The notes under the pieces were generated by a model that saw nothing but the letters and a program-made list of their open reading frames with translations, ran no database searches and was not told the origin of the DNA. A program made the translations under genes and the position numbers. A stretch of 64,000 nucleotides of DNA from Hymenobacter sedentarius (GTDB lineage: Bacteria; Bacteroidota; Bacteroidia; Cytophagales; Hymenobacteraceae), in assembly GCF_001507645.1 (NCBI RefSeq), contig NZ_CP013909.1, forward strand, positions 1,612,001 to 1,676,000, read 5' to 3'. Below are positions 22,173 to 40,171 of the stretch, piece after piece (position 1 is the stretch's first letter; every line of letters starts with the position of its first letter).

Positions 22173-23219
22173 ATGAAGACGAAAATCCTGGTGGTCGACG
22201 ACGAAGCCGACCTCGAACTGCTCATCAAGCAAAAGTTCCGGCGCAAAATCCGTGAGAATGCCTATGAGTTCGTTTTCGCCAACAACGGACAAGAGGCCCT
22301 CGAGCGCATTCTGCAAAACCCGGATACTGACATCATCCTCAGCGACATCAACATGCCCGTGATGGACGGGCTGACCCTGCTCACCCGCACCCACACCGAA
22401 CACCCGACCATGAAAACGGTGATAGTGTCGGCCTACGGCGACCTGGGCAACCTGCGCACCGCCATGAACCGCGGCGCCTTCGACTTTGTGGTAAAGCCCG
22501 TCGATTTCCACGACCTGGAAGTCACTATCGAAAAGACTGCCGACGAGGTGCGCCAGCTGCGCGACACGCTCCGCGCCATCCAGGAAAACAACATCCTTAA
22601 GATGTACGTCGACGAGACGGTGCTCAAGTTCATGACCCGGCCCGACTTTGAAAACCGCCTCATGGCCAGCGAAACCGTGGAAGCCACGGTGGTTTTCCTT
22701 GACATCTGCGGCTTTACGTCGTTGGCCGAGCAGCTCCAGCCGGCCGACGTGGTGACCTTGCTCAACACTTACTTCGACCTTATGGTGAAGGAGGTAATTG
22801 CGCAGGGCGGCTACGTCGACAAGTTTATGGGCGACGCCGTGATGGCCGTATTCCGCGGCGAGCACCACCTGGACCGCGCCATCGACGCGGCCCTGTCGGC
22901 GCGCACCGCCTTGCACCAAAGCGACGCCCCGCTGCCCCCCGGCTTCGAGTACCGCCCCGAGGTGAGCATTGGCGTGAATACCGGCGAAGTGGTGTCCGGC
23001 AACATTGGTTCGGCTTCGCTCAAGCGGCTGGATTACACCATTATCGGCGACGTGGTGAACACCTGCCAGCGCCTGCAGGCCTCCGGCAAGCCCGGCCAGG
23101 TCATCATCAGCGAAGCCGTTTACCTCAAGGTAAAAGAATCCTTCAAGTGCCAGTACGTGAGCGAGGTAAAGTTGAAAAACAAAGCCCAACCCGTGAAAAT
23201 CTACGAAGTAGTGGAGTAG
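22173..23219 (+). CDS. Response regulator with class III adenylate/guanylate cyclase domain
   Basis: A 348-residue protein. Residues 1-125 are a receiver (Asp9/Asp10, phosphoacceptor Asp58 in LSDINMPVMDG, Lys108), then a helical linker, then a class III cyclase catalytic domain from about residue 165. Catalytic features are present: metal-binding Asp177 (VVFLDICGFTSL) and Asp221 (KFMGDAVMAVF), substrate-recognition Lys217 with the DYTIIGDVVN segment, and the downstream Arg of NTCQRLQ. This favours ATP as substrate and an active enzyme. The start MKTKILVVDDE was chosen over a 30-codon upstream extension lacking similarity. It is convergent with a gene encoding a cyclic-nucleotide-binding domain, a likely effector. 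Confidence 0.93.
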   Translation: MKTKILVVDDEADLELLIKQKFRRKIRENAYEFVFANNGQEALERILQNPDTDIILSDINMPVMDGLTLLTRTHTEHPTMKTVIVSAYGDLGNLRTAMNRGAFDFVVKPVDFHDLEVTIEKTADEVRQLRDTLRAIQENNILKMYVDETVLKFMTRPDFENRLMASETVEATVVFLDICGFTSLAEQLQPADVVTLLNTYFDLMVKEVIAQGGYVDKFMGDAVMAVFRGEHHLDRAIDAALSARTALHQSDAPLPPGFEYRPEVSIGVNTGEVVSGNIGSASLKRLDYTIIGDVVNTCQRLQASGKPGQVIISEAVYLKVKESFKCQYVSEVKLKNKAQPVKIYEVVE

Positions 23220-23336: not shown

Positions 23337-26300
23337 CTAATGCGCCAGCTCGCGCATTTTCTCGTTTTGCAGCCGGATGCGCTGGCACAGCATGCGCAGG
23401 ATGTTGCGCAGCACCTCGCCGCGCTCTTCCATGAGGTCGTAAAAATCTTCCTGGTCGAGGCGGAAGGCCAGCACCTGGCTGAGCGCTGCCGCCGAGGCCG
23501 AGCGGGGCTCAGCATCGAGCAGGGCCAGCTCGCCGAAGAAGTCGCCGGGCCCGAAGGTGGCCAACTGCTGGTTGCCGTTGAAGATGCCCACCTGGCCGTC
23601 GTGCAGGATGAACAGCGAGGTGCCGATGTCGCCTTTGGCAAAGATTTCCTCGCCTTCGTTGAAGGTTACCTCCTTCATGATGGGCACGATGCTGCTCAGC
23701 ACGTTTTCGGGCGTTTGGGCAAACAGGGCGGTGCTTTTGAGCACCACCACCCGCTCCAGGGCGGAAATGCGGGCTTCGGCGGTGGCAGGAGAGTGGCTCA
23801 TAGCGGTGGAATGGGATGGGGCGGATAATGGCTGGCCGGTGTGGGCCGCAAGGGCTGCCGCGGCCAGCTGCGCACTTTCGGCCAGCAGCTCATTGCGCGA
23901 TTGCAGGTAGGGCTGCAGCAACGCCGGCGCATCGGCTTCGATGGGCTGCCAGTGGCGCAAGGCCAGGCTCAACGTCCAGGAGGAGAAAGCAGTAGGGCCC
24001 TGCCGAAGCAGGAAAACCGGTAAGGGCTCGGCAGGAAGAGCAGTGGGTTCCGGCGCTGATACCGCACCATAGCCAGCCGGCATCAGCCGGGTACGGGCTG
24101 GCTGAGCAGGTGCCGTAAGCGTGGCGAAAAGCCGGGCTTTTTCCGCTACGGGGGTGTCGTCGAGCAGGGCCTGCAGGCCCTGGTAAATGGGCCGCGGAAT
24201 CAGGTTGTCGAGGATTTCCAGAGCGTTGGCCTGCCGCTCGCGGGCGGCGTGGGCCACGTTGCGCTGGGCCGTGGCCACCAAGTCGGCGTCGTAGAGCTGG
24301 GCCAGGATGCCGAACACGCGCTGGTGCAGCTGCGTCAGCTCGTAGTCGACGGTGGCATGCAGGGCGGGGCGTTGGTCGGCCACAAGGCCGCGCAGCAGCT
24401 GGGCCGCCAGAGTGAATTCCTCGCGCAGCAAGTGTTCAAACACGGGTGTCTCGGCGGGCACAGCGGGGGCGTGGCGCAAGGCGCGCAAAGCCACGGCCCG
24501 GCAAAACAGGTTACTGCCCTGGGCCAGCTCAACCAGCGCGGCGCGGCTTGCGGGCCCGGGCAGGCGTTCGAGCACCGTGGCCAGGCGGTGCATGGCGGCC
24601 GCGCCGGGCTTGCGGTGCAATGCCTCCCGCACCAAGGGCACCACGGCGGGGCCCAGCGCCACCAGGCTGTCGGCGGCGGGTTGCCAGCGTAGCTTGTCGC
24701 TCAGCGCCCGCAAGAGGTAGGGCGTGAGCTTGGTGTGGCCCACGGTGCCAATGGCTCTAAGGGCCGTTTCTGCTACCTGGGGCTCGCTGCTGGCCAGGCT
24801 GCTGGCAACAAGCTGGTCTTGTGTATCGAAGGGGAAGAAGCCCAGCAGCGCCAGGGCGGCGTCGCTGGTCGCGGCCGATGGCTGGTGCAATAAGTCGTGC
24901 AGGCTGGTTTGGGCCAGCGGGTTCTGGGGCTCGGCTTCGAGGCTGCCCCGGATGGCACCCTGGCGTGCGGCCATGTCGCTGCCGGTTAGCAGTGCCGCCA
25001 CCAGGGAGGCCGCCGCTTCGGGGGCGGTGGCGGCCAATTGCTGGGCGGCGGCTTCGCGCACGGCGGGGGCGGGGTCGCGCAGCGCCAAGGCGTGCAGGGC
25101 TTCGGCGGGCAAGGGCCGCACTTCGGCAATGGCCAGCACCGCCAGGCGCACCCGTTCGTCGGGGTGCTCGAGAAGGGTGGGCGCGTGGCCGGCGAGGGCG
25201 GCCGGCTGGCGCTGGCGCAGCCAGGCCACGGCATTGAGTACCTCGGTGGGGCGGGGGCTGTGCAGGTGCGCCAGCACCACTTGCAGTGCGGCATCGGGCA
25301 GGGCCAGCTCGGCGGTTTCGGCAAAGCGACGGCTCAGGCCTTCCTTCAGCTCGGCGAGGTAGCTGCGGTAGGTGCGCGCCAAAAACAGCAGGGCCAAGAC
25401 CAGCAGTGCGCCCATCCAGGCAAAGGGCACCCAGCCGTCGAGCAGGCCCGCGTAGCGCAGCCCGAAGAACAGCACGCCCGTCAGGCCCATGCCCAGGGGC
25501 TCATAAAAGCCCTTGGCCAGCGTGTGGGCGGCCAGCCGCTGCGGCGGCGCCAGGGGCTGGAACAACACCAGAAAAACGGGGTCGAACACGGTGCGACGCA
25601 GCACCTCCAGCAACAGGTACAGCCCGCAGAAGTACATCAACAGCCCCGATTCGGTATACGTACCCACCAGCTGCACACCTCCAAACCCGGCCAGCGCCAC
25701 CAGCGCCACCGCCGGCAGCAGCCGCAGCGACCACTGCACGCCGTAGCGCTCCAGGGCCTGCCGGCTCACCAGCAACTTAAAAAACATGGCCGCCAGGTAG
25801 GTCAGCCCCAGTATCCAGCCCACCGAGCGGGTGATGTCTTCCGACTCGTGAAACTTGTGCTTAACGTTGATAAAAAACATGTACTCCACGCCGGTGAGCA
25901 CGGCCGCAATGGCCACCAAACTCAGGCACATGGCCAGCACGAGCTCGCTGCCGCCAAACAGTTGCCGGACGATGTTGCCCGGGGCCCGCTGTACCCGGCG
26001 CATGGGCCGGGCCACGGCTTCCACGTTGTGCGAGCGCAGGGTGGAGCGCAAGGCAAATAGCGCCCCCACGTAGGCCGCAAAGGACACGCCTAGCAGCACC
26101 GGCAGCTGCGCATCGCCATGGATAAGCGCCGCCAGCAAGGCCCCGAGGGCCTTGGCCGGCATGTCGCCCGAGCTAATCACGCTGAACAGCCGCTTGCTTT
26201 GCCGCACGTCGAATACCACCGCCGACACGCCCCAGAACTCCAGGTTGGTGAGCAGGTAGATGACGCGGTAGCCCACCATAATGGCCACGGCCGCCACCAC

Positions 26301-26627
26301 CGAGTGGCCCACAGCCACCAGCGTGCCCATGGCCCCGGTCAGGGCCACCACGGCCAGCAGCACGCGCACGGCCAGCTTCTTGAGCAGGTAGTGGTGCTCG
26401 AAATACGTGTACACCTTGCCCACGGCCATCATGCCCAGCGCGCCGGCGATGTAGCCCAGCGGCAGGCTGTGCTCGGGGTTGTGCTCGAGCAGCAGCACGT
26501 TGGCCGCTACGTACACCAGCACCGAGCCGATGCCAAGAAGAAAATTGTGCAGCAAAAACAGCCCCACCGTACGGGTTTCGCTGGTTTTGATGCCGAACAG
26601 GCGCTGTAGGGAGGTGGCAGAAATCAT
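23337..26627 (-). CDS. Nucleotide-translocase-like membrane protein fused to HEAT repeats and a cNMP-binding domain
   Basis: A 1096-residue three-part protein. Residues about 1-430 contain about ten to twelve membrane helices resembling the ATP/ADP translocase (NTT)/MFS superfamily (for example FLLHNFLLGIGSVLVYVAANVLL and VSAVVFDVRQSKRLFSVISSGD). Residues about 440-850 are alanine-rich HEAT-like repeats (VRLAVLAIAEVRPL, VREAAAQQLAATAPE). The last 145 residues are a cyclic-nucleotide-binding domain with an intact phosphate-binding cassette, FGELALLDAEPRSASAAAL, including the key Arg and Glu. The start MISATSLQRLFG was chosen; further upstream is non-conserved. It may be a membrane protein gated or positioned by cAMP. 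Transport itself is not shown; the NTT lysine-rich substrate residues could not be checked by eye. Confidence 0.85.
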   Translation of the reverse strand: MISATSLQRLFGIKTSETRTVGLFLLHNFLLGIGSVLVYVAANVLLLEHNPEHSLPLGYIAGALGMMAVGKVYTYFEHHYLLKKLAVRVLLAVVALTGAMGTLVAVGHSVVAAVAIMVGYRVIYLLTNLEFWGVSAVVFDVRQSKRLFSVISSGDMPAKALGALLAALIHGDAQLPVLLGVSFAAYVGALFALRSTLRSHNVEAVARPMRRVQRAPGNIVRQLFGGSELVLAMCLSLVAIAAVLTGVEYMFFINVKHKFHESEDITRSVGWILGLTYLAAMFFKLLVSRQALERYGVQWSLRLLPAVALVALAGFGGVQLVGTYTESGLLMYFCGLYLLLEVLRRTVFDPVFLVLFQPLAPPQRLAAHTLAKGFYEPLGMGLTGVLFFGLRYAGLLDGWVPFAWMGALLVLALLFLARTYRSYLAELKEGLSRRFAETAELALPDAALQVVLAHLHSPRPTEVLNAVAWLRQRQPAALAGHAPTLLEHPDERVRLAVLAIAEVRPLPAEALHALALRDPAPAVREAAAQQLAATAPEAAASLVAALLTGSDMAARQGAIRGSLEAEPQNPLAQTSLHDLLHQPSAATSDAALALLGFFPFDTQDQLVASSLASSEPQVAETALRAIGTVGHTKLTPYLLRALSDKLRWQPAADSLVALGPAVVPLVREALHRKPGAAAMHRLATVLERLPGPASRAALVELAQGSNLFCRAVALRALRHAPAVPAETPVFEHLLREEFTLAAQLLRGLVADQRPALHATVDYELTQLHQRVFGILAQLYDADLVATAQRNVAHAARERQANALEILDNLIPRPIYQGLQALLDDTPVAEKARLFATLTAPAQPARTRLMPAGYGAVSAPEPTALPAEPLPVFLLRQGPTAFSSWTLSLALRHWQPIEADAPALLQPYLQSRNELLAESAQLAAAALAAHTGQPLSAPSHSTAMSHSPATAEARISALERVVVLKSTALFAQTPENVLSSIVPIMKEVTFNEGEEIFAKGDIGTSLFILHDGQVGIFNGNQQLATFGPGDFFGELALLDAEPRSASAAALSQVLAFRLDQEDFYDLMEERGEVLRNILRMLCQRIRLQNEKMRELAH

Positions 26628-26787
26628 TGAAAAAATTGGGCTGGCACCACCGGGCGCAGCTGTAGCCAAATATACGGCTTCTGCGTTCCTATGCGGAATT
26701 TCGGGCCTGGGAAGAGAAATTCCAAGCTCTACCGGCGGCCTTCGCCCGTCGGCATGCCTCCTGCGTGCTGGAGTAGCCAGCTCAATA

Positions 26788-26899: not shown

Positions 26900-29350
26900 T
26901 TAGGGGGCGGGCTGCACAGCGGGCCCGGCTGGGTACACCTTGAGGGAGCGGCTGAAGGTGTTGTTGGTTTCCATCCATTCGCTCACGGTTTTGCCGGCGT
27001 CGACCACGGCTCCGAGCGAGAAATTGCCGCTCGCGGTCGGTTTCCAGTTATTGGAGGTGGCGGGCAGCAGGCGGGCCTGGCCGGGCAATAGGGGTTTGCC
27101 CATGCCTTGCAGGCTGGCCACTTTGGCGTTGTTCACGGTGAAGGCTACGTCGACCTTGCTGCTGGTGGGCAGCGGCGCCGTGCCCATATTCTTCACCATG
27201 GCGTAGAACGTAACGGGCTGGCCGGGCTTCGGGAAGCGGGGCACAGTGAACACCTGGGTTATCTTCAAATCGGGCTTGGCTGTAGCTGCTTTGAGGGTAA
27301 AAGCGCCCCCCAGCGGGAGTTTGTCCGACGCGCTGCCCACGCGGAAGCTGTAAGCCCCCGGGTGCACCTGGTAGCCTTTGGCCTGCTCGTTCCAGAAGTA
27401 AAAATCCTCGGCCGAAAGCGTGAAGCTGACCGTTTTCTTCTGTTTAGGCGCCAGGCTGATGCGCTCGAAGCCCTTGAGCTGTTTCTCCGGCATGGTCAGC
27501 TTACTCGATTTGTCGGTGAGGTAGAGCTGTACCACTTCGTCGCCGACCGTGGTGCCGGTGTTTTGCACATCTACGCTGATGGTGACGGGCGCACCGGCCA
27601 GGACCGGGGCGGTCGGCAGCTTCAGGTTGCTGTATTGGAAAGTGGTGTAGCTCAGGCCGGCGCCGAAGGCGAACTCGGGCTTCATGTTCTTCTTGTCGTA
27701 GAGGCGGTAGCCCACGCCGTTGGCGTCGGTGAGGTCGTCGCCCCAAGTGGGCAGCTGGGCGTCGCCAGTGGGCATGGTCACGGGCATGCGGCCGGCGGGG
27801 TTGTAGTCGCCCACCAGCACGTCGGCCAGCGCAGTGCCGGCTTCCTGGCCCGCGTAGAAGGAATAAAGCAGCGCCTTGGTGCGGGGCAGGCTCTCGTGCA
27901 GGGCGCACACGCCGCCGCTTTGCACCACCACCACCATCTTGGGATTGGCGCGGGCCAGGGCGTTGATGAGGGCCTGCTGCTGGCCGGGCAGCGTTACTGA
28001 TTTGTTGGCGCGGTCGTGGCCCGAGTTGTACTCCTCGCCCTCCTGGGTGCTGTCGAGGCCGGCGGCGAAGATGACCACATCGGCCTCCCGGGCCAGCTCG
28101 CGGGCCAGCTTAAAGCCGCTGGTGTCGGCGCTGTTCATGTCGCAGCCTTTGGCAAAGGCGATTTTGGCCACGCCCAGCTTGGTTTCCAGGCCCTGCTTAA
28201 GGCTGACGGAGTAGGGCGGGCTGGTTTCGCTGCTGCCGTAGCAGTTCAGGTTGCCCTTGTCGGCGTTGGGACCGATGAGGGCGATGCGCTTCACCGTGGC
28301 CTTGTTCAGGGGCAAGAGCTGGTCGGTGTTCTTGAGCAGCACGATGGACTCGCGGGCCGCCTGCTGATTGAGCTTGGTGTGGGCTGGGGTGTTGGCGTCG
28401 GCCTTGCTGCCTTTGGGATAAAAGTCGAGCAGGCCCGCCATGATTTTGGTGCGCAGCACGTTGCGCACGGCCGCGTCGATGGCCGTCATGGGCACGGCGC
28501 CGCTGGCCACCAGGCCGGGCAGGTCTTTGGTGTAGTCGTCGCTGCCCATGCACACATCGTTGCCGGCCAGGATGGCCTTCTTCGTGTCGTGCACCGCGTC
28601 CCAGTCCGACACCACGTAGAACGGGAAGCCCCAGCGCTCGCGCAGCACCGTGTTCAGCAGGTAGGGGCTCTCGGCCGCGTGCTCGCCGTTGATGAGGTTG
28701 TAGGCCGACATCACGCTGAGCACGGCGCCTTCCTGTATCACGGTGCGGAAGTTATAGCCGTAGTGCTCCATCACGCCGCGGTCGGTAAACAGCTCGTTGC
28801 GGGTGTGGCGCGTCGACTGTTTGCCTTCAATCATGAAGTGCTTTACGGTGGCTATCACCGGCGTGGTCTGGATGCCCTTGGCCACGTGCGACGTAATCTG
28901 GCCAATCAGGAACGGGTCTTCGCCGCCGCTCTCGGCGCTGCGGCCGCCGCGCGGGTCCTGGGCCAGGTCGATGCACGGGCCCAATTGCTGGTGCTTGCCA
29001 AAGGCCCAGAACTCCTCGCCCATGGCCTGGCCTACTTGCTGGGCCAGGCTGCGGTGCCAGGTCGAAACCATGCCCATGCCGGTGGGCCAGGCAATGGCTT
29101 TCTGGAAGCGCACGCCGTGGGGGCCGTCGTCCATCACAAAGCCCGGGATTTTGAGCCGGTCGTTGGTGGGCGTGGTCATGAAGCTGTTGTTGGTCAGTTG
29201 AGCCAGCTTTTCTTCGGTGCTCATGGCTTTCAGCAGCGAATCGATGCGGGGCTCCAGGCCCAGGCGCTGGGCCTGGGCGGCGGGCTGGGCGCCGGCCACC
29301 AGCAAAGCCCCGAAGGCCAGGCGGCGGAGAAAGGGAAGGGATTGTTTCAT
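26900..29350 (-). CDS. GH3 beta-glucosidase with C-terminal CARDB domain
   Basis: An 816-residue secreted enzyme. The start MKQSLPFLRRLAFGALL gives a signal peptide ending AQA. The GH3 N-terminal barrel holds the nucleophile aspartate in VVSDWDAVHD and KHFMIEGKQSTRHTRNE; the C-terminal alpha/beta sandwich spans about residues 330-540, then a fibronectin-like GH3 domain (GDEVVQLYL). Beyond about residue 700 is an extra immunoglobulin-like CARDB adhesion module (GQPVTFYAMVKNMGTAPLPT; ETNNTFSRSL), not usual in BglX-type enzymes. Likely role: release glucose from short beta-glucans produced by the two GH16 enzymes. Last gene of the glucan utilisation locus. Confidence 0.93.
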   Translation of the reverse strand: MKQSLPFLRRLAFGALLVAGAQPAAQAQRLGLEPRIDSLLKAMSTEEKLAQLTNNSFMTTPTNDRLKIPGFVMDDGPHGVRFQKAIAWPTGMGMVSTWHRSLAQQVGQAMGEEFWAFGKHQQLGPCIDLAQDPRGGRSAESGGEDPFLIGQITSHVAKGIQTTPVIATVKHFMIEGKQSTRHTRNELFTDRGVMEHYGYNFRTVIQEGAVLSVMSAYNLINGEHAAESPYLLNTVLRERWGFPFYVVSDWDAVHDTKKAILAGNDVCMGSDDYTKDLPGLVASGAVPMTAIDAAVRNVLRTKIMAGLLDFYPKGSKADANTPAHTKLNQQAARESIVLLKNTDQLLPLNKATVKRIALIGPNADKGNLNCYGSSETSPPYSVSLKQGLETKLGVAKIAFAKGCDMNSADTSGFKLARELAREADVVIFAAGLDSTQEGEEYNSGHDRANKSVTLPGQQQALINALARANPKMVVVVQSGGVCALHESLPRTKALLYSFYAGQEAGTALADVLVGDYNPAGRMPVTMPTGDAQLPTWGDDLTDANGVGYRLYDKKNMKPEFAFGAGLSYTTFQYSNLKLPTAPVLAGAPVTISVDVQNTGTTVGDEVVQLYLTDKSSKLTMPEKQLKGFERISLAPKQKKTVSFTLSAEDFYFWNEQAKGYQVHPGAYSFRVGSASDKLPLGGAFTLKAATAKPDLKITQVFTVPRFPKPGQPVTFYAMVKNMGTAPLPTSSKVDVAFTVNNAKVASLQGMGKPLLPGQARLLPATSNNWKPTASGNFSLGAVVDAGKTVSEWMETNNTFSRSLKVYPAGPAVQPAP

Positions 29351-29635
29351 AAAGTCGGAAATAGAGGGGAGAAAACTCCGCCGGAGCAAAGCGCAAACAC
29401 GATGGGGCGCCAAAGAAGGAACAGGCCCGGCCCGGGACAAAAGAGGGGTAGCTCCGTGCCTGGCAGGGCCACCTTGGCGGCGCTGCAAATCGGCCCGGGC
29501 GGGCCTGTTCTTTCCCAATGGCGTGGCAGTCCACAGGCTGCCACGCCGGCACCACCCCAAGGAAGTCTCACCAAACCTTCGGCGTGATAGAAGTGAAAAA
29601 TTGAGCTGAATAAGCCAGCGGCCGGACCGGCGGGC
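29351..29635. other. Structured intergenic region between GH16 and GH3 genes
   Basis: 285 bases without a gene. It holds an inverted repeat with 18/17-base arms at 29419-29436 and 29494-29510 (GAACAGGCCCG core) and a separate 10-bp hairpin, GGCGTGGCAG/CTGCCACGCC, at 29520-29547. Neither is followed by a U-tract. Confidence 0.6.
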
Positions 29636-30522
29636 CTAGCGCTTTTTCATTTGGTAGATGCGCACGTAGTCCACCAGCATCTGCTGGGGAAAGGCGGCTT
29701 CATCGATGCCTTTCTGGCCGCCCCACTCGCCGCCCACGGCCACGTTGAGCAGCACGTGAAAGGGCTTGTCCCAGGGCCAGGCCTGCCAGCCGGTGCCTTC
29801 GTTGCGGGCCGCGAAGTAGAGCTGCCCGTCAATTTCGGCCGTGATGGTCTCGGGCGTCCACTCAATGGCGTAGACATGGAAGGCCGTGGTGGCGTCGGGC
29901 ACGAGCGTGACGCCGGTTTTCTGGTTGTTGGTCCGGAAGTAGTAGCTCTTGCAGTGCGTTGAAGCATGAATCACGTTGGGGTCGTAGCCCACGTGCTCCA
30001 TGATGTCGATTTCGCCGTTGTCGGGCCAGCTGTGGTTGCCATAGGTGTTTTCGTCGGGCAGCATCCAGATGGCGGGCCAGGTGCCGCGCCCGCCCGGAAT
30101 GCGGGCCCGCACCTCGAAGCGGCCGTAGGTCTGGCTGCCGCCGCGGCCCTTGCCGCGCGATACCAGCCGGGCCGAGGTGTAGTCATTGCCGGGCTGCAGG
30201 GCTTCCTTGCGGGCCTCAATAACGAGATTGCCGCCCTCGACGCGGGCATTCTCGCGGCGTTTTTGGTGTAGTACTGCAGCTCCTTATTGCCCCAGCCGGT
30301 GCCGCCCACGTCGTAGCTCCACTTGGTGGAGTCGGGCAGGCCGGGGGCGTTAAACTCGTCGCTCCACACCAGCTTCTTGAAGGTGTAGCGGGGCGTTGGG
30401 CTAGTAGGTGCCTTGGCGCCAGCCGGTGGCCCAACGGGGGCAGCAGCACCCAGCAGCACGCTGCTGAATACTGCCACCACCCGGGCCAGCGTGGCTCCGC
30501 CACGGCAGCGCACACCCGCCAT
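29636..30522 (-). pseudogene. GH16 beta-glucanase interrupted by a single-base frameshift
   Basis: Two frames join to one GH16 enzyme. From ATG 30522 the frame encodes a signal-like segment, then FKKLVWSDEFNAPGLPDSTKW and GWGNKELQYYTKN. At the A5 run (T5 at 30260-30264 on the plus strand) it shifts; the other frame continues NARVEGGNLVIEARKEALQP through RFEVRARIPGGRGTWPAIWML, the catalytic GEIDIMEHVGYDP, and ends YVRIYQMKKR. One extra A or C at the run restores an uninterrupted protein of about 295 residues, so the lesion is a one-base deletion, a sequencing error or a slippery site. Homologous to the intact GH16 immediately upstream. Without correction the catalytic half has only an internal start (30112). 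Confidence 0.85.
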
Positions 30523-30562
30523 CTTAAGTTTCCCACCTTCTCTGACTGGCATGCGCACTGGG

Positions 30563-31438
30563 TTATTTGTACTGATAGTACCGAACATAGTCGACCTGCA
30601 TTTGCTGGGGGAAGATGGTGCTGGTATCGGGGTTGCCGTCGAAATCGCCGCCAATGGCCACGTTCAGCACCACAAAAAACGGGTTGTTAAACGGGTTGGG
30701 GCTGGCGCCCCCGGTTCCGAAGGTATAATACTGCTGCCCATCCACGTAAAAGCGGGTTTGATCTTTGCTGCGCACCGCCGAGTACACATGGAAGCCGTCG
30801 GACAGCTCGGCGGGCTGGGTGACGGTGGTGCCCTGCTGGCCGTGTACGCCCTGGGCGTTCTGAAAGTGCATGGTGGTGAGCAGCTCGCGGGGCTTGCTGC
30901 CGCGCAGCTCCATGATATCGATTTCGCCGCACTTGGGCCAGTTGTTCTGGTCAATGTCGGAGCCCAGCATCCAGATGGCGGGCCACACGCCCTTGCCCTT
31001 GGGCACCTGCGCCCGCACATCGATGCGGCCGAACACAAAATCCTTTTTGCTCTTGGTGAGGATGCGGCCCGAGGTGAAGCTGCCCGTGCCGGAACGGATG
31101 GCCTTGATGGTGAGGTTGCCACCGCTCAGAAACACGTTGTCGGTCGAGTTGGTGTAGGTTTCGAGCTCGTTGTTGCCCCAGCCGCCACCGCCCAGGTCGT
31201 ACTTCCATTTGGTGGCGTCGAGGGTGCCCGCGTCGAACTCATCGCTCCACACCAGGTCGGTGTAGTCGGCGTAGCTGCGGGCGTCCTCGTTGGCCACCGG
31301 CGCTGGGGGCGTTGGTGGCGTCACGGGCCCGGGCGTGAAGGTGGTGCCTTTGTCGGTGCAGGCCGGCAGGCTCAGGGCCAGCAGCAGGCCGGCCCCGAGG
31401 AGCTGGGTAGTCAGGGCGCGGAAGGGAAGTAGCCGCAT
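30563..31438 (-). CDS. GH16 family endo-beta-1,3-glucanase (laminarinase), lipoprotein
   Basis: A 291-residue protein with a lipoprotein signal (LLLALSLPACTDKG), so anchored in the outer membrane. The GH16 fold is shown by YTDLVWSDEFDAGTLDATKW, GKGVWPAIWMLG, the catalytic GEIDIMELRG (ExDxxE) and LNVAIGGDFDGNP, ending in DYVRYYQYK. GH16 enzymes of this type cleave internal beta-1,3 or mixed beta-1,3/1,4 glucan bonds. It lies between the PKD lipoprotein and a second, frameshifted GH16 gene in the SusC/D locus, supporting laminarin-type glucan as substrate (inference). Confidence 0.93.
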   Translation of the reverse strand: MRLLPFRALTTQLLGAGLLLALSLPACTDKGTTFTPGPVTPPTPPAPVANEDARSYADYTDLVWSDEFDAGTLDATKWKYDLGGGGWGNNELETYTNSTDNVFLSGGNLTIKAIRSGTGSFTSGRILTKSKKDFVFGRIDVRAQVPKGKGVWPAIWMLGSDIDQNNWPKCGEIDIMELRGSKPRELLTTMHFQNAQGVHGQQGTTVTQPAELSDGFHVYSAVRSKDQTRFYVDGQQYYTFGTGGASPNPFNNPFFVVLNVAIGGDFDGNPDTSTIFPQQMQVDYVRYYQYK

Positions 31439-31475: not shown

Positions 31476-32285
31476 CTATTTGGCTACCAGCTTCATGTCG
31501 AACACCACGCCGGCGGCCGTGCTGCCGGCCCGCAGCACCATGTTCGTGTTCGTGATGGAAAGGATGCGGTACGTAAAGCCCGGCGCATCCGTCACGCCGA
31601 TGAATGGCGACGGGGTGGCGCTGGCCAGCGTGAGTTGGGCTAAGCCTGCGCCCGTAGCGTTGCCAAACGTGAAGGAAGTAGTCACGTTGCGCGGGGTATC
31701 GCAGCCACCGCCGGCTACAAAGGTCTGGCCCTTGGCGTCGTAGGTGAAGGAATTGGTGGCGCTGAAAGTGTATTCGTCATCGGCCTGGCAGGCGGGCAGG
31801 GCGCCCGCGCTGGGGTTGCCGCCGTAGTAGCTGGTGGGGTCGGCATCGGAGGGGCCCACGGTGATAGGGGCAACCACGGTATTATCAAGCTTCCAGGTTT
31901 TGGAGCTGCCGCCGGTGAGGAGCTGGTTCACGATGGCCGACACCGAGGGCAGCACCAAGTCTTTGGTGGTCGATACGCTGGTGCCGCCACGGTAAGCCGT
32001 AATGAGCTTGGTTTTGAGGGTGCCGCCGCTGCTGTACACGTGGGTGGCGGTTTTGCCGGAGCCCACGGTACCATCGCCGAAGTCCCACTGGTAGAGGAAG
32101 CCATCGGTGTTGGTGGCCGTGAACGTGGCCGTGGTGGTGAGGCCGGTCGTGACCTTGGTCACGGTGAAGTCGGAGGCGGGCACGGCGCCCTCCAGGCTAT
32201 AGTTGTCGACGTCCTTTTTGCAGGAAGCCAACATGAGCGGAGCCATCAAAAGGCCGAGGGCTGCGGCACGTACTATGTTTTTCAT
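31476..32285 (-). CDS. PKD-domain lipoprotein, probable surface glycan-binding protein
   Basis: A 269-residue protein. The start MKNIVRAAALGLLMAPLMLASC gives a lipoprotein signal with Cys as lipidation site. A PKD domain covers about residues 40-115, with the signature YQWDFGDGTVGSG. The C-terminal half includes KTWKLDNTVVAPITVG and EYTFSATNSFTYDAKGQ, as seen in SusE/F-position binding proteins of laminarin loci. No catalytic residues seen. It directly follows susD and precedes GH16, so a role in capturing glucan at the cell surface is likely. Confidence 0.87.
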   Translation of the reverse strand: MKNIVRAAALGLLMAPLMLASCKKDVDNYSLEGAVPASDFTVTKVTTGLTTTATFTATNTDGFLYQWDFGDGTVGSGKTATHVYSSGGTLKTKLITAYRGGTSVSTTKDLVLPSVSAIVNQLLTGGSSKTWKLDNTVVAPITVGPSDADPTSYYGGNPSAGALPACQADDEYTFSATNSFTYDAKGQTFVAGGGCDTPRNVTTSFTFGNATGAGLAQLTLASATPSPFIGVTDAPGFTYRILSITNTNMVLRAGSTAAGVVFDMKLVAK

Positions 32286-32366
32286 GGAATTGAGTCGGGA
32301 ATGAGTGGGGAGCAAAACGGCCCGCCCGCAGGCCCTAACGGGCCGGGCAACGGGCGAGCCGGAGGC

Positions 32367-33860
32367 TTAGTAGCCCGGGTTTTGCTTCAGGTTGGGGTTA
32401 ACGTCGAGCTCGGTTTGGGGCAGGGGCAGCACCACGTTGTTGGGCTTCACGCCTTTGGCTAGCAGCTGGGGCGAGGTCAGTAGCTCACCCGTGCGCTTCA
32501 TGTCGAACCACCGGTCGTTTTCGAACGCCAGCTCGTACTTGCGCTCCCGCCACACGGCCGTTTTAAACGCGGATGCGCTGATTCCGGCCGCAATGTCGTG
32601 CGCGGCCGAAGGCGTGGCGAGGGGCAGGCCAAAGGAGCGGCGGCGCACAATGTTGAGGGCGTCGAGGCCGGCCGGCGTGGGCCCGCTGGCTTCGGCCAGA
32701 ATCAGGTACATCTCGGCCAGGCGCAACACCTTGATGTTGAGGCCGGAGTCCCACACGCGGGTATCGGTTTTGCCAATAAACCACTTCTTGCAGCCGTAGC
32801 CGCTGGGCGAGCCGGGCAGCGAGGCCGGCTGCTTGCGGCCGTCGGGGTACACGTCGCCGGGCTTCCAGATGGTCACGTCGCGGCGCTGGTCGCCGGTCTC
32901 GTAGCCAGCCACGAAGTCGTTTTCGGGAATGTTGAAGCCGTAGCCGCCCTGGGGCACGATGCCCTGGCCGCGGGGGCCAAAGAACTCATTGCCCACAAAG
33001 CCCAGGCCGTCGAAGGTGTATTCGTTGCGGCCCGACACGTACTGCACTTCAAACAGGCTTTCCTTGCCGTTATCGTTGGCAATCTTAAAGATGTCGCCGT
33101 AGTTGGGATACAGGCTGTACTGGCCCGAGTTGATGACCTCACTGGCGCGTTGGGCGGCGCCGCTCATGTTGCCCTGCGTGAGGTACACCTTGGCCAGCAG
33201 GCCGGCGGCGGCCCACTTGGTGGCCCGCCCGATGTCGTCGCCGCTGTAGGTGGCCGGCAGCTTGGTGATGGCGTCGGTCAGGTCGTTTACAATCTGGGTG
33301 TAAACCTGGGCCGCGGGGGTGCGCGCAATGTTCACCTCGGCCGGCGTAAGGGGCGGTACCGTGAGCAGCGGCACGTCGCCGTACACCCGCACCAGGTCGA
33401 AGTAGTACTTGGCCCGCAGAAACTCGGCCTCGCCCAGGCACCGGTTCTTGATGGCCGGGTTGATGTTGGTGATAAGCGGCACCTTCTGCAGCACAATGTT
33501 GGCCCGCCCGATGCCGATGTAGCTGCCGCCCCACAAGCGGTTGATGATGGGGTTGGTGCTCGGGATGTTGAAGTTGTCGAGCTGCTGTTGCTCGATGCCG
33601 TCGCCGCCGCCGCCGCCGCCGGTGTAGGAAATGTCGGAGCCGATGTCGCCGATGCCCCACAGGGCGTAGTTGTACTGACCGCCTTTGGCGAGTTCGCTGT
33701 AGGCCGCCGTTACGGCCTGAATGGCGTCTTGCTCGCTCTTGTAGAAGTTGGCGTCGGTAATCTGGTCGTTGGGCGTTTCTTCGAGGAACTTCTTGCCGCA
33801 GCCGCTGAGCAGGCTCAGGCCCAGCAGGGCGCCACAGGCGCATTTATGAAGGATAGTCAT
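32367..33860 (-). CDS. SusD/RagB family outer-membrane glycan-binding lipoprotein
   Basis: A 497-residue protein with a lipobox (LGLSLLSGCGKKF). The N-terminal region KFLEETPNDQITDANFYKSEQDA and the helical TPR-like core (EAEFLRAKYYFDLVRVYGDVPLLT) are diagnostic of SusD. The C-terminal block with LRLAEMYLILAEA and WRERKYELAFENDRWFDMKRTGE is also typical. SusD forms the lid of the SusC transporter and binds oligosaccharide at the surface. It begins 27 bases after susC ends. Full length for the family. Confidence 0.96.
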   Translation of the reverse strand: MTILHKCACGALLGLSLLSGCGKKFLEETPNDQITDANFYKSEQDAIQAVTAAYSELAKGGQYNYALWGIGDIGSDISYTGGGGGGDGIEQQQLDNFNIPSTNPIINRLWGGSYIGIGRANIVLQKVPLITNINPAIKNRCLGEAEFLRAKYYFDLVRVYGDVPLLTVPPLTPAEVNIARTPAAQVYTQIVNDLTDAITKLPATYSGDDIGRATKWAAAGLLAKVYLTQGNMSGAAQRASEVINSGQYSLYPNYGDIFKIANDNGKESLFEVQYVSGRNEYTFDGLGFVGNEFFGPRGQGIVPQGGYGFNIPENDFVAGYETGDQRRDVTIWKPGDVYPDGRKQPASLPGSPSGYGCKKWFIGKTDTRVWDSGLNIKVLRLAEMYLILAEASGPTPAGLDALNIVRRRSFGLPLATPSAAHDIAAGISASAFKTAVWRERKYELAFENDRWFDMKRTGELLTSPQLLAKGVKPNNVVLPLPQTELDVNPNLKQNPGY

Positions 33861-33887: not shown

Positions 33888-36800
33888 TTAAAACCCGATG
33901 TTGAGGCCAGCCAACAGCACGCGCGACTGCGGATATACGCCGCGGTCGACGCCGCTGGGGCTTACCTCCGGGTCGAAACCGGTGTATTTGGTGAAAGTGG
34001 CCAGGTTCTGGGCACTCACGTACACCCGAATCTGCTGGGCGCCCATGCGGCTCATCAGGGCAGTGGGCAGGGTGTAGCCCAGGGTCAGGTTCTTGATACG
34101 CATATAGGAGCCGTCTTCCATGTAGTAGGTGCTCACGCGCAGGTTGTTGTTGGGGTCGCCGGCAATGGCGCGCGGCACCTCGTTGCTGGTGCCCGGGCCG
34201 GTCCAGCGGGCCAGCACGCGGGTGCCGCCGCTGGCATTGCCGTAAAGCGGGGCTTCTTCGAGGTAGCGGTTCAGGTTGTACACCTTGTTGCCCTGCACAC
34301 CCTGCAAAAACACACTCAAATCGAAGCCCATAAAGCTCACGGTGTTGGTCAGGCCGTAGGTGAACTTGGGGTTGGGGCTGCCGATGAAGGTGCGGTCCTT
34401 GGCGTCAATCTTGCCGTCGCCGTTCAGGTCCTTGAAGCGGATGTCGCCAGGGCCGGTGGCCTTGGTGGGGTCGGCATTCACGGTTTGCGTGGCGTGGTTT
34501 TTCACGTCCTCGAGCGTCTGGAACAAGCCGTCGGCCACGTAGCCGTAGAAGGAGCCAAACGCATAGCCCGGCTCGTAGCGCACGATGTTGCCGCTCAGCG
34601 AGCCATGGCCGTTGTAGGGCAGGCCCGCGCCGAGGGATTCCAGCTTGGTGGTGTAGGTCGAGAAATTGAGGGTGGTGTTCCAGTTGAAGCCGCGGGCCGC
34701 GTTGCGGAAGTTGTGCGACGTCACCGAGAGGTCGAGACCGCGGTTGTAAGCCGAAGCGGCGTTGCGGTTTACGCTCTCGTAGGTGCCCGACACCAGCGAC
34801 ACCGGCACGGAGGCAATCAGGTTGGGCGAGTTGCGGTTGTAGATGTCAACGGTGGCCTCCACCCGGTTGTCGAACAGGCCCAGGTCCAGGCCGAGGTTGG
34901 TTTGGTTGTTGGTTTCCCAGCGCAGCTCGCCGTTGGACTGCCGCGTGGGCGCCGCCCCGTTGAAGATGGTGCCGTTGGGCCCGAACGGGTAGGTAATCTG
35001 CGAGTTAATGGAGTAGAGGTAGGCGAAGCGGCCGGCGTTGTTGGGGTTGCCCACTTTGCCGTAGCCCGCGCGCAGCTTCAGGTTGCTCACCACGCGGTTG
35101 TCCTTCATGAAGTTCTCCTCCGAAATGCGCCAGCCCGCCGAAATGCCGGGGAAGAAGCCAAACTGCGAGCCGGGCTGAAAGGCACTCGACCCGTCGTAGC
35201 GGGCAATGGCCGAGAGCAGGTACTTGCCGGCAAACTCGTAGTTGGCGCGGGCAAAATAGCTGGCCAGGTGCGAAGGCACCCCGAGGTAGCCAAAGTTTCC
35301 GAGCTGTGGGTTGATGGGCCCGTTGTTGAGGTTCTGTAGGTCGTTGCTGAGGTAGCCGCTGCGCGAGGCGCCCAGCTCCTGGCTGTTGAATAATTGAGCC
35401 GACTGGCCCAACAGCAGCGTCACCTGGTGCTTTCCGGCGAAAAGGTGGTCGTAGGCGGCGGTGTTCTCAATCAGGTAGCTGTAATTGGTATTGGCCTGCG
35501 AGAAATCGCCCGCCGTGGAGTAGCGGGTGGTGTAGGTCTCGGTGCCTACCTGCAGCTCGGGTATTTTGGGGCCGAAGCTGTTGTTGTTCGTAAAGTTGAA
35601 ATCGATGCCCACGTTGGTGCGGAAGCGCAGCCCCTTTACCGGCTCAAGCTCGGCAAAGAGTGTGGTGAGGGCCCGGTTGCGTACGTACTTGCGGTTGGCG
35701 TACAGGATGTTGGCCAGTGGGTTTTCCTCCACGAAGTTGTCTTGCTGCCCGCGCGGCTCGTAGTAGTAGCCGTCGGGGCGGTACACGGGCACAATCGGAA
35801 TCATGCGAATGAGCTGCTGCACCGTGCCATACTCGCCGTTGTTGGTGGTCACCTGGCGGTCTTCCTGGTGGGTGAGCTGCAGGCTGTTACCGATTTTCAG
35901 GATTTTGTTGACCTGCACGTCTCCGTTAGCCCGCAGCGTAAACCGCTCGAAGTTGGAGCCAATGATGATGCCGTCCTGCTTGAAATAGCTGGCCGACACC
36001 GCGTAGCGGGCCTTGTCGCTGCCGCCGGTAGCGCCCAGCGAATAGTTCTGCATGGCGGCCGTGCGGAAGACCTGGTCTTCCCAGTTGGTGCCTTCGCCCA
36101 GCGCTTTGGGGTCGCGCAGGCGGTCCACCACGATGGGCTGGCCCGCCGCTATGCGGTTTTCGTTGTTGATAACGGCGTATTCTTCGGCGTTTAGCAAGCC
36201 AATTTTGCGCCAGGCCTGCTGCGTGCCCCGGTAGCCATCCACGTTGATGGTAGACCGGCCGGCCTTGCCGCGCTTGGTAGTAATGATAATCACACCGTTG
36301 GCGGCGCGCACGCCGTAGATGGCGGTGGCCGAGGCGTCCTTCAGGATGTCGATGCTCTCGATGTCGTTGGGACTGATTACGTTGAGCTGGTCCTCGCCCG
36401 AGTCGGGCAGCGGAAAGCCGTCCACCACAAACAGCGGGTGGTTGTTGCCCGCCGACGTGATGCCCCGGATGAGGATGGACGTACCGGCCGCCCCGCCGGG
36501 GGCGCCTCCGTTGGAGGTGATGGTGACGCCCGAGGCTTTGCCTTGCAGGGCTTGGGCGGCATCTGCTACGGGCAGAGCGGCAATCTCGGCACCGGCCACC
36601 GATGCCACCGAGCCCGTCACGCTACCGCGCTGCTGGGTGCCGTAGCCGACCACCACTACTTCGTTCAGTTTCTGGGTGTCTTCCTTGAGGGAGATGTTGA
36701 CGGCCCCGCCGTTGGCCGCCGATACCAGCGCCGTTTGGGTGGTGAAGCCGACAAAGCTGAACACCAGCGTGCTGCCCTCGGGTGCGGTCAGGCTAAAAGC

Positions 36801-37037
36801 ACCGTCGGAATTGGTGCTCGTGCCGAGGCTGGTGCCGCGCACCAGCACCGTGACACCGGGCAGGCCAGCCCCATCGGGACCGCTTACGCGGCCCGACACG
36901 GGCACATCGGCCGCCGGCCGCACGTGGGCAACCGGTGCCGCGCCGACCGGCGCAGCGGCTGCCCACGTGGGCAGCGCACAAGCCAGTAGAACTGCGGTGC
37001 AGCGTACCGGCGCAAAAAGGTAAAAGTTTCGCTTCAT
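33888..37037 (-). CDS. SusC/RagA family TonB-linked outer-membrane transporter
   Basis: A 1049-residue protein. A signal peptide (MKRNFYLFAPVRCTAVLLAC...) is followed by a carboxypeptidase-regulatory-like domain (GAGLPGVTVLVRGTSLGT), a TonB plug (LNEVVVVGYGTQQRGSVTGSV, then IDILKDASATAIYGVRAANGV) and a 22-strand barrel ending in Phe (LLAGLNIGF). It imports oligosaccharides using TonB energy, working with the SusD protein downstream. First gene of the locus on this strand. No FecR-binding N-terminal STN domain is visible, so control by an ECF sigma/anti-sigma pair through this protein is unlikely. Confidence 0.97.
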   Translation of the reverse strand: MKRNFYLFAPVRCTAVLLACALPTWAAAAPVGAAPVAHVRPAADVPVSGRVSGPDGAGLPGVTVLVRGTSLGTSTNSDGAFSLTAPEGSTLVFSFVGFTTQTALVSAANGGAVNISLKEDTQKLNEVVVVGYGTQQRGSVTGSVASVAGAEIAALPVADAAQALQGKASGVTITSNGGAPGGAAGTSILIRGITSAGNNHPLFVVDGFPLPDSGEDQLNVISPNDIESIDILKDASATAIYGVRAANGVIIITTKRGKAGRSTINVDGYRGTQQAWRKIGLLNAEEYAVINNENRIAAGQPIVVDRLRDPKALGEGTNWEDQVFRTAAMQNYSLGATGGSDKARYAVSASYFKQDGIIIGSNFERFTLRANGDVQVNKILKIGNSLQLTHQEDRQVTTNNGEYGTVQQLIRMIPIVPVYRPDGYYYEPRGQQDNFVEENPLANILYANRKYVRNRALTTLFAELEPVKGLRFRTNVGIDFNFTNNNSFGPKIPELQVGTETYTTRYSTAGDFSQANTNYSYLIENTAAYDHLFAGKHQVTLLLGQSAQLFNSQELGASRSGYLSNDLQNLNNGPINPQLGNFGYLGVPSHLASYFARANYEFAGKYLLSAIARYDGSSAFQPGSQFGFFPGISAGWRISEENFMKDNRVVSNLKLRAGYGKVGNPNNAGRFAYLYSINSQITYPFGPNGTIFNGAAPTRQSNGELRWETNNQTNLGLDLGLFDNRVEATVDIYNRNSPNLIASVPVSLVSGTYESVNRNAASAYNRGLDLSVTSHNFRNAARGFNWNTTLNFSTYTTKLESLGAGLPYNGHGSLSGNIVRYEPGYAFGSFYGYVADGLFQTLEDVKNHATQTVNADPTKATGPGDIRFKDLNGDGKIDAKDRTFIGSPNPKFTYGLTNTVSFMGFDLSVFLQGVQGNKVYNLNRYLEEAPLYGNASGGTRVLARWTGPGTSNEVPRAIAGDPNNNLRVSTYYMEDGSYMRIKNLTLGYTLPTALMSRMGAQQIRVYVSAQNLATFTKYTGFDPEVSPSGVDRGVYPQSRVLLAGLNIGF

Positions 37038-38074
37038 GGTGGGAGTTGTGAGAGTGATAAGCGAATGGTGGAAGTTTGAAAATCAGAGTAAAAGGCTGGG
37101 GTACGGCCGGCCGCTGGCGGCGCGTAGCTTCAGCAGTAGCGGCCCTGGGCGGCGTAGCCCAGCCGCAAGTGCAGTGCCGGAGCGCTTACCTAATGGTACC
37201 CATACTTATGCTGTGGGGGAATCCAATTGGGCTAACTAAGTAGCCGGGGGCAATGCACTGCCAGTGCCCATCTAAAGTAGAGTGGGTATGTAAGCTTATC
37301 GGACAGGCTGCCACCGGATGGCTGATAGACTCTACCCGTTTAGGTGAACCGTAAATATGAAAATTCCGGACCGTCGCCACAGCTTGAACTGCACCTTGTG
37401 CCGCTAGCTGTTGGCTTGCCGTAGAATTTGTACCCAGGAAATTGAGCTGATTCGACTCCCCATTTTTTCTCTTCCGTGAGTTTTGCACTACCCCCAGCTG
37501 CTTGCGCGGGCTACTAGAAAGAGCCAGTAGGGCGGCCGGCGCTACGGCGGCGCGGTAGGTGGCGGCAGTGGCGAGCGTAGTGGTCCATTGGGCTGTTGCT
37601 ATAGGACCTCGCGCAAAACGCGTCTTATGCTGCCAGGTCAAGCCTTCGCCCGCTACCACAGCCGTGCGGAAAGGAACCGAAGAGAAGCTTGTGAATACGG
37701 TGGGAAATACTCGCATTGGGCAGGTGGGAATGCCCAAATGTAGAGGAGTGTGTTTGGCAAATGCAACTAAGAAAATGCCCTGGCATAGCTGATTTGGCCT
37801 TTTTTCAGCGTTGTACGCTTGCGGGTTATACGCTTGCTGCACACGCAAAATCTCGTCTTTATGCCTAATTCAGGCAATGGTGGCCTTGTGGGGATTTTCG
37901 GGCTTTGGCTAAAAAACAATGAAAAAAAATGCCTCTCAACAAAAAAACATGGCGACAATCATCAACAAATGATCGAACCCTCTAAAAAACCAATAGAATG
38001 CTCGCCAAGGCCAATTGACCAAGCAAGACAGTCTCCCAAACGTTTCCGGAAACTGCGGACTCAAAAAGTGCCGG
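37038..38074. other. 1-kb gene-free region between susC and the 7TM-DISM regulator
   Basis: No open frame shows family-like composition; the longest (220 codons on the minus strand) has erratic composition and no recognisable segment. The part near 37800-38040 is clearly AT-rich compared with the rest of the window. It should contain the susC promoter and any operator for a locus regulator, and lies immediately 3' of the receptor gene. Confidence 0.6.
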
Positions 38075-40120
38075 TTATTCCTGCCCGGTTTCAGCAAATT
38101 CTACTTCGGCGGTCGCATCCAGGAGCACGTGGGTCCAGGGCTCGTTGTCTTCGTAATCGGGCGCGAGGCGCCGGCGCTGCAGGGCGGCCAGCACCTTCTG
38201 GGCAAATGCCCAGCTGGTGGCTTGGCGCAATTCCAGCACCCGCGCCAGCTCGGAGGGCGAGTAGCTGCCTTTGTGGGCGTGCAGCAGGAACACGGCGTAC
38301 AGCGCTTTCACAATGGAGAATTTGCATTTCTGCAATAACGTGCCGGCCGTGGCCGACTCTACGTAGCGGCACCGGGTGCAGCGGCGAGCATGGGGCTCGC
38401 GGGCTTCGCAGCTCTTCTCGTGGCCGCATTTGCGGCAGCGGTACCCGCCGTTGGCCCACTTCAGGTCGGCGAGGTAGCGCAGGCAGGCGCCTTTGTCGGG
38501 GTAAATCTGGCTGAATTCGCCAAAGTCCACTTCCCGCGCTTCGATGCGCGCGGCCTTCTCGGCGTGGAGGTCGCGGCTGAGGTCGCCGTTGAGCTTTTCG
38601 ATGGCCGCCGACTGCAGCGCCAGCAACCCGTTGGCTTCGAGCAGCTCCCGGTTTTGGGTAGCCACGGTTTCGTTTTGGTGGCGCAGCTCCGCCGTGCGTA
38701 GCGCCACCAGCGACTCCAGTTCGGAGTTGAGCTGGTCCTTCAACTCCTGGTTTTCGCGCATCTGCTCCACCAGCCGGTCCTGGGCCTGGTGCTTCTTGCG
38801 GAGCTGCTTCAGCAGTCGGTGCTGGGTTAGAAGGGTGGTATCCATCATGCCCTTGATTTTCTCGCCCAAGGCGTAGCTCAACGTCACGACTTCCAGCACA
38901 AACGCCACGTACAGGCTGTAGACGGTGTAGGCATTGTTGTAAAAATCGATGCCCAGCTTGCGCATGATGAGAAACGTGAGGCTGGTGGCCACCAGGCCCT
39001 GGCCCAGCAGCAGGTAGCGGGCCGGCTGCAGGCCGCTTCGGTAAGCCCGCCAGCCAACGTAGTACAGTAGGCCGTACGGCAGCAGGTACAGCCAGAAGCT
39101 AAGCCCGGAGTGCACCACGGCGGCATCGAGCACCAGCAGGGCCGCACTCCCGCCCACGACCCAGTGCCCGAGCCGGTGCAACGCCGGCAGGCGCGAGGCA
39201 GTATCCAGGAAGCCGCTGGCGTAGGTGGCAAAGGTGAGCAGTAGCAGTACCGGCGCCGCGGCGCCAATAAAGTGGTTCAGCCCGGGCTCGCCGGGCCACA
39301 GGTACTGAAAGCCCAGCCCATCTTCCGACAGGAAGAGCAGCGCGCCGCTCAGCACGTAGAGCACGTAGTAGAGGTAGGTCTTCTCCTTGAGAAATAGGAA
39401 GAGAATGAGGTTGTACAGCACCATGATAAACAGGATGCCGTAGAAGCCGCCCAGCAGCCAGTACTGCACCGACAGCTCCGGAATGAGCCCCGCGCTGCTG
39501 TGGAGCATGGCCCGGAAGCTGGTGCGCGTGTCGGAGCGCAGGCGCAGGTAGTACGTGGCGGTTTGCCCAGGCCGCGGGGGCAGGTCAAAGAGGAAGTTTT
39601 TGTAGGGATGGGGGCGGGTGGCAAAGGGCAGGCTGGCCCCCGTGGCCACGCTGTCGTAGGCCAGGGCCTGGCCTGGTTGGGCTGGGCCGGGCTTGGGGCG
39701 GAAAAAAACGGCCCCGCCAATGTGGGAGTCGTAGAGCTCCAGGTACCAGGCCGCGGTTTCGGCGGGTGCGTGACGCACCGTGAGGCGCAGCCAGTAGGTG
39801 CTACTGGGGTGCTGGCTGTTGGGCGGGTGCCCCGAGCCCCGCAACGCCTGAAACCGGCGGCTCCAGGCCGGCGCCTGTAAGTCGGCGATGGTGAGCCGGC
39901 CGGTGGGGTCTTCCAGCATGCTGTAGTAGTTCTCGTCCAGGTAGAACTCGTTCAGGGCCTGGTTGATGACCAGTGTGTCTTCGGGGGTGGCGGCGGCGCT
40001 GCGACGCGCACCCAGCAAGCTGAGAAGCACCAAGCTCGTGCCCAGCAGTAGCCGCTGTAGTTGGCTCCCAATCCCACCGTTCCGACGCAGGAGCCAGCCC
40101 TGATTGCGTGAATGTTGCAT
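38075..40120 (-). CDS. 7TM-DISM membrane receptor fused to an IS1595-type transposase zinc-ribbon/HTH domain
   Basis: A 681-residue protein. The start MQHSRNQGW gives a signal segment (LLLGTSLVLLSLLG); residues about 50-200 are a periplasmic jelly-roll like 7TMR-DISMED2 (STYWLRLTVRHAPAETAAWYLE split by loops). About 225-435 hold seven membrane helices of the 7TMR-DISM type (GGFYGILFIMVLYNLILFLF). A long coiled coil runs to about 530. The C-terminus, from residue 532, matches the N-terminal part of IS1595-type transposases: YPDKGACLRYLADLKW, zinc ribbon CRKC (562/565) and CTRC (581/584), TAGTLLQ, then helices ELARVLELRQATSWAFAQKVL. No DDE catalytic domain follows. Likely a membrane-tethered DNA-binding sensor (inference). 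It is the gene next to susC. Confidence 0.88.
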   Translation of the reverse strand: MQHSRNQGWLLRRNGGIGSQLQRLLLGTSLVLLSLLGARRSAAATPEDTLVINQALNEFYLDENYYSMLEDPTGRLTIADLQAPAWSRRFQALRGSGHPPNSQHPSSTYWLRLTVRHAPAETAAWYLELYDSHIGGAVFFRPKPGPAQPGQALAYDSVATGASLPFATRPHPYKNFLFDLPPRPGQTATYYLRLRSDTRTSFRAMLHSSAGLIPELSVQYWLLGGFYGILFIMVLYNLILFLFLKEKTYLYYVLYVLSGALLFLSEDGLGFQYLWPGEPGLNHFIGAAAPVLLLLTFATYASGFLDTASRLPALHRLGHWVVGGSAALLVLDAAVVHSGLSFWLYLLPYGLLYYVGWRAYRSGLQPARYLLLGQGLVATSLTFLIMRKLGIDFYNNAYTVYSLYVAFVLEVVTLSYALGEKIKGMMDTTLLTQHRLLKQLRKKHQAQDRLVEQMRENQELKDQLNSELESLVALRTAELRHQNETVATQNRELLEANGLLALQSAAIEKLNGDLSRDLHAEKAARIEAREVDFGEFSQIYPDKGACLRYLADLKWANGGYRCRKCGHEKSCEAREPHARRCTRCRYVESATAGTLLQKCKFSIVKALYAVFLLHAHKGSYSPSELARVLELRQATSWAFAQKVLAALQRRRLAPDYEDNEPWTHVLLDATAEVEFAETGQE

Positions 40121-40137: not shown

Positions 40138-40171
40138 AAAAGCCCACCGGCTTTGGACCGGTGGGCTTTGG
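40138..40171 (-). terminator. Intrinsic terminator after the DUF5686 gene
   Basis: CAAAGCCCACCGG pairs with CCGGTGGGCTTT on the minus strand, followed by a run of T. It lies between the DUF5686 stop codon and the receptor start codon. Confidence 0.85.

Follow-up and report, generated by a model that had tools for sequence, protein, structure and literature searches.

A 7TMR-DISM receptor with a transposase-derived zinc ribbon and helix-turn-helix as a probable membrane-tethered regulator of beta-glucan utilisation in Hymenobacter

Within the 64,000-nucleotide stretch of the Hymenobacter sedentarius genome analysed here (the window, to which all coordinates given without a locus name refer), the minus-strand frame from 40120 to 38075 is open and codes for a protein of 681 residues, conserved in Hymenobacter and in other families, in which a 7TMR-DISM receptor is joined to the ribbon and helix-turn-helix (HTH) of an IS1595-type transposase. 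This protein is probably a one-component, membrane-tethered transcription activator of beta-glucan utilisation, with the domesticated DNA-binding domain of a transposase as its output. The first-pass annotation had placed the gene correctly at 38075..40120, to which the strand, then left unstated, can be added as minus.

The features along the chain, all read from the minus strand, begin with a periplasmic sensor, a 7TMR-DISMED2 jelly roll at residues 64–206 (39503..39931; Pfam, 3e-25) that matches the periplasmic sensor domain of RetS (Foldseek, E 1e-6), followed by the seven transmembrane helices of a 7TMR-DISM_7TM domain at residues 220–420 (38861..39463; Pfam, 3e-38; also helices in the model). 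Together with a C-terminal intracellular signalling module, these are the parts that mark a 7TMR-DISM receptor, the identity first proposed for this protein. The membrane domain is linked to the output by a long helix or coiled coil at residues 421–528 (38537..38860), which carries a conserved LKDxxNxELExxVxxRT and is modelled by AlphaFold2 as helices 397–490 and 501–528, with low confidence at 486–515. The output starts with an IS1595-type zinc ribbon in the same frame (residues 544–586; 38363..38491; Pfam PF12760, Zn_ribbon_IS1595, 8.7e-6), the score of which, 26.0 bits against a curated cut-off of 25.4, is barely above threshold. Residues C562, C565, C581, C584, K554, W555, S589, T594 and T635 show little or no variation among 23–38 homologues, and because the four cysteine ligands and the other residues are so conserved the ribbon match is not a chance one.

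The segment after the ribbon, described previously as helical with an IS1595 consensus, does match that consensus and can be specified further as an HTH (residues 603–652; 38165..38314), with three helices in the model and weak fold matches to homeodomain and AsnC-type HTHs. Residues 599–653 match positions 2–57 of the 215 positions of NCBIfam NF033547 for IS1595 transposases at 1.2e-5, a match of 25 bits where the cut-off is 75. The chain then stops after a conserved C-terminal W..LLLD tail (residues 662–668; 38117..38137; from alignments), located where a DDE domain would start, and no DDE catalytic domain was found with Pfam or NCBIfam. The protein thus shares with IS1595 transposases their N-terminal zinc ribbon and lacks their catalytic domain, as had been noted at the outset. 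Histidine kinase, receiver and AraC domains were also absent from the receptor in the Pfam and NCBIfam searches. AlphaFold2 modelling, at pLDDT 84 for the full chain and 85 for the C-terminal module alone, shows the jelly roll, seven helices, long helix, ribbon and three-helix HTH; searches of the PDB with Foldseek and VIA-align gave weak matches to the HTH alone and no close structural match for the whole ribbon-HTH module. By sequence and model, a sensor, a membrane segment and a DNA-binding-type domain are therefore combined in one chain, the arrangement of a membrane-tethered one-component regulator, and the ribbon would be expected to bind zinc and the receptor to dimerise.

The fusion is old and widespread. 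The closest database record is from Hymenobacter sp. BT770 (96% identity), the receptor is present in most of the 61 same-genus genomes, and full-length receptors also occur in several other families of the same order, many of whose members carry several paralogues; carriers include Dyadobacter, Chitinophaga, Pedobacter, Mucilaginibacter and Cyclobacteriaceae. In a maximum-likelihood tree, built from few columns and rooted at the midpoint, all fused modules and one stand-alone module of 137 residues formed a single clade (support 99/94) beside the IS1595-like proteins L089 and L093, and a single domestication of an IS1595-type module is on this basis likely rather than proved. In nearly every pairwise comparison the ribbon-HTH was the most conserved region of the protein, for example at 96 vs 75% and 76 vs 38% for module and sensor. 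The proposal that a domesticated transposase module has become the output of a receptor is thereby borne out as to origin, with DNA binding as its probable function. Frameshifted receptor genes were seen in two Hymenobacter genomes (L051 and L063); the protein of genome G003 has thereby lost its ribbon, and in G005 the shift affects the final residues.

The module also occurs behind other sensors. Two proteins with HTCS-type Reg_prop and Y_Y_Y sensors, L150 (5403–8396) and L151 (5506–8712), end in an IS1595 module, L151 being situated upstream of SusC-SusD, and in a third protein, L048 (236 residues), a short N-terminal hydrophobic segment is joined to the module. A broader reading, which we favour with some reserve, is that a single domestication of the IS1595-type DNA-binding module took place in Bacteroidota, after which 7TMR-DISM receptors, HTCS-type propellers and a single-helix anchor all acquired it as an interchangeable output. 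The result would be a class of glycan regulators, tethered to the membrane and reading AAGCGTAY operators, that has so far gone unrecognised. Conserved stand-alone ribbon-HTH proteins of 154–202 residues that lack DDE domains (L292, L293, L294 and L295) were found in one genus of another family and are possible further domesticated regulators. Another genome (G257) encodes ten diverged IS1595-like proteins of about 300 residues (L278–L287), apparently without the usual catalytic motifs, and several of these share a GCGCTTTAGGCGC-like block upstream.

Downstream of the receptor and on the same strand is an operon of a SusC-type TonB-dependent receptor (33888..37037; Pfam, with a conserved position downstream of the receptor), SusD (32367..33860; Pfam and gene order), a PKD-domain protein (31476..32315; Pfam), a GH16 glucanase (30563..31438; Pfam), a broken GH16 gene and GH3 (26900..29560; Pfam), which by its gene content is a predicted beta-glucan (laminarin-type) locus, with SusC and SusD as the proposed targets. 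A frameshift divides the broken GH16 gene (29636–30560), and the N-terminal half of the gene is in a different frame from a 158-residue open reading frame. A decayed remnant of a further GH3 gene, with approximate limits of 37354..37730 on the minus strand, was detected by tblastn (6.6e-8) and by a 19/19 base match to the GH3 gene of L197. In close relatives an intact GH3 gene stands between the promoter and SusC and starts the operon, whereas Hymenobacter sp. BT770 has the same decay; in the window the promoter thus leads through the remnant to SusC. A terminator-like hairpin of 13 pairs with a T run (40139..40169, minus strand; pattern scan) intervenes between a DUF5686 gene and the receptor, and the DUF5686 neighbour is not kept in most relatives, such that co-transcription of the two genes was rejected. 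Elsewhere in the window, positions 13234–23219 hold four consecutive histidine kinases and, after them, a response regulator whose output is a cyclase, and this cluster is adjoined by a HEAT-repeat protein with a cNMP-binding domain (23337–26669).

The order of these genes is conserved. At 61 of 64 Hymenobacter-type loci, GH3-SusC-SusD or SusC-SusD comes next after the receptor on its own strand; of the three loci that depart from this, two run into a contig edge. The order receptor-(GH3)-SusC-SusD is also kept in Chitinophaga, Dyadobacter, Mucilaginibacter, Pedobacter and Cyclobacteriaceae. Outside Hymenobacter, 17–18 of 30 co-directional neighbours on the downstream side were SusC-like and divergent neighbours included GH9, GH81, GH64, GH18/19 and GH3, while convergent neighbours, which serve as a built-in control, were mostly housekeeping genes. 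SusC occurred within three genes of 20/57 ribbon-bearing as against 0/20 ribbon-less 7TMR-DISM genes (Fisher p 0.001, with same-genus loci not independent of one another). The survey of homologues thus recovered both the same fusion and its co-occurrence with SusC/SusD, a conserved linkage of the kind expected of a SusC/SusD PUL regulator, and the conserved neighbour order argues against transposon mobility.

Alignment of the DNA between receptor and operon revealed several conserved blocks, the clearest being GTGTGnnGYAAGYGTAYA, which lies 77–78 bp upstream of the promoter −33 element at 59 Hymenobacter-type loci. In the window this candidate operator is GTGTGCAGCAAGCGTATAA (37826..37844), accompanied by a second copy of the core, GCAAGCGTACAA (37811..37822, with the core at 37814–37820), and by a Bacteroidota-type promoter of the glucan operon, TTG...TAnnTTTG (37735..37766), which is conserved in relatives; all three are on the minus strand. 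A weaker direct repeat lies about 24 bp beyond the operator in Hymenobacter-type loci. Further conserved elements precede the operator in relatives, namely a T-rich block, TTTTTTTTCGTTGTTTTTTAGCC, and TCCGGTAACGTTTGCG near the receptor stop codon (window ~37900–38060, minus strand). Across the 4.87 Mb of its own genome the operator was the sole match within three mismatches, and the regulon in this genome is therefore local.

In other genera, de novo counting returned AAGCGTAT as the top 8-mer, present in 15/70 loci and 0/135 control regions and enriched in Hymenobacter as well, and AAGCGTAY, the operator core, is found again next to homologous receptors of other families. At these distant loci the core was found before SusC or another co-directional gene in 16/42 cases and before the receptor in 0/33 (p 2e-5), often as two copies about 88–91 bp apart; neither AAGCGTAY nor CGTATCA was present at the other 26 of the 42 co-directional loci (~60%). 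A derivation of the operator from transposon ends was considered and is not supported: L291, an IS1595-like relative with intact-looking catalytic motifs, carries ATTGAATTAGGCAC as a 14/14 terminal repeat, and the core was absent from the 900 bp searched to each side.

Copies of the operator were also found away from the receptor. A search of 59 genomes located 31 exact sites in 22 Hymenobacter genomes and none of a reversed control pattern. Sites were present in 22/31 genomes with the receptor and 0/6 without it (p 0.002), the receptor-less genomes mostly being without this SusC too, so that the co-occurrence partly reflects loss of the whole locus and the comparison is a weak one. Twelve sites distant from the receptor were examined in other Hymenobacter genomes, and ten had a co-directional gene directly downstream (GH16-CBM6 in four cases, GH30 in three, an MFS transporter in one and an unknown family in two), supporting a beta-glucan regulon in which the receptor-linked motif would also mark glucanase genes elsewhere. 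About half of Hymenobacter-type loci have a second site before an upstream GH16-GH5-receptor or GH5-receptor operon, and this placement suggests autoregulation. Such extra operators also scored highly in the control DNA of held-out PWM tests, and most of them stand ahead of GH16/GH5 operons. Taken with the conserved gene order and operator, these copies strengthen the initial suggestion that the adjoining glucan locus is the target.

The probable mechanism would begin with the binding of a glucan-derived oligosaccharide or sugar by the periplasmic jelly roll; the resulting change would travel through the seven-helix bundle and long coiled coil to the cytoplasm, where the zinc ribbon-HTH modules would form a dimer. 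Carbohydrate binding is reported for the DISMED2 domain of NicD (PMC8544897), and signalling helices are known to connect sensors to outputs (PMC1592074). The modules, derived from an IS1595-like transposase, would bind GTGTGnnGYAAGYGTAYA, the half-sites of which would be direct repeats, ahead of the promoter and would stimulate transcription of the SusC-SusD-GH16-GH3 operon. The same effect would extend, in other Hymenobacter species, to GH16 and GH30 genes at other places in the genome and, as autoregulation, to GH16-GH5-receptor operons. We thus infer a sugar ligand and its sensing, binding of the operator by the receptor, and activation rather than repression.

An alternative explanation keeps the receptor as a glucan-linked regulator but assigns the operator to some other transcription factor, with protein contacts or other DNA as the means by which the ribbon-HTH acts. 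The operator and conserved upstream DNA could be the site of any regulator of beta-glucan genes, and the histidine kinases and response regulator at 13–23 kb in the window are a conceivable source of one, yet that response regulator has a cyclase rather than a DNA-binding output, is present in Hymenobacter genomes without operators, and was rejected as the operator binder on these grounds. With the core recurring beside homologous receptors in other families and no further regulator found inside the glucan locus, this explanation appears unlikely. Unlikely too is a mechanism of opposite sign, whereby the module represses the operon when glucan is absent and the ligand releases repression. The sign of regulation cannot be read from sequence, but far-upstream sites are usual for activators and the operator is so placed relative to the −33 element. 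The direct-repeat motifs of Bacteroides HTCS and SusR, moreover, belong to systems that are mostly activating (PMC3878776). There is very little probability that the module binds RNA or another protein instead of DNA, given that its ribbon is joined to an HTH common to DNA transposases and is coupled to a conserved DNA motif. Some zinc ribbons do bind RNA or proteins, and this is the point in favour of such a role. Finally, the idea that a transposon end entered a receptor gene by chance or recently and left it with a non-functional C-terminus, to which the marginal ribbon score might point, is refuted by the widespread, cross-family occurrence of the fusion, its single clade, the conserved ligands, the module being the strongest conservation in the protein, and the absence of a second ribbon above the Pfam cut-off elsewhere in the genome.

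If the proposed activator is correct, a kinase-free class of regulator, with many copies in some genera and a directly testable predicted operator, would be added to glycan-locus regulation in Bacteroidota, for which HTCS, SusR and ECF-sigma/anti-sigma systems make up most of what has been described (PMC3878776, PMC10766802). It would also show clearly how the DNA-binding domain of a bacterial transposase can be taken over as the output of a transmembrane receptor. No description of a transposase-derived 7TMR-DISM output, or of its tie to SusC/SusD, was found in the open-access papers searched, whereas DNA-binding outputs on 7TMR-DISM receptors (the ChiS family, PMC8092284) and direct-repeat PUL regulators (PMC3878776) are already known.

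The 7TMR-DISM receptors NicD, RetS, LadS and RgsP have the same sensor and, where carried, the same seven-helix bundle, but known outputs are kinases, cyclases and others, in contrast to the transposase-type zinc ribbon-HTH of the Hymenobacter receptor; the other 7TMR-DISM protein matched in its own genome is a histidine kinase. Proteins with the ChiS-family DNA-binding domain, some of them on 7TMR-DISM receptors, likewise place a DNA-binding output at the C-terminus of sensory proteins, ChiS itself acting on the chb chitobiose promoter, but they are proteobacterial and their domain is of a different fold (helix-sheet-helix) and origin (PMC8092284). The HTCS and SusR regulators of Bacteroides PULs are alike in glycan sensing, adjacency to SusC/SusD and direct-repeat operators (PMC3878776), but HTCS proteins have kinase, receiver and AraC domains and SusR is of another family, and the Hymenobacter receptor differs from both. 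L150 and L151 combine the two designs, having an HTCS-type Reg_prop/Y_Y_Y sensor but the IS1595 module as output. With the IS1595 family transposases the receptor has the zinc ribbon and HTH in common, without their DDE catalytic domain. ToxR and CadC are similarly single chains that contain a sensor, a membrane anchor and a DNA-binding domain, but with an N-terminal winged-helix domain and a single membrane helix, as opposed to the C-terminal ribbon-HTH and seven helices of the receptor.
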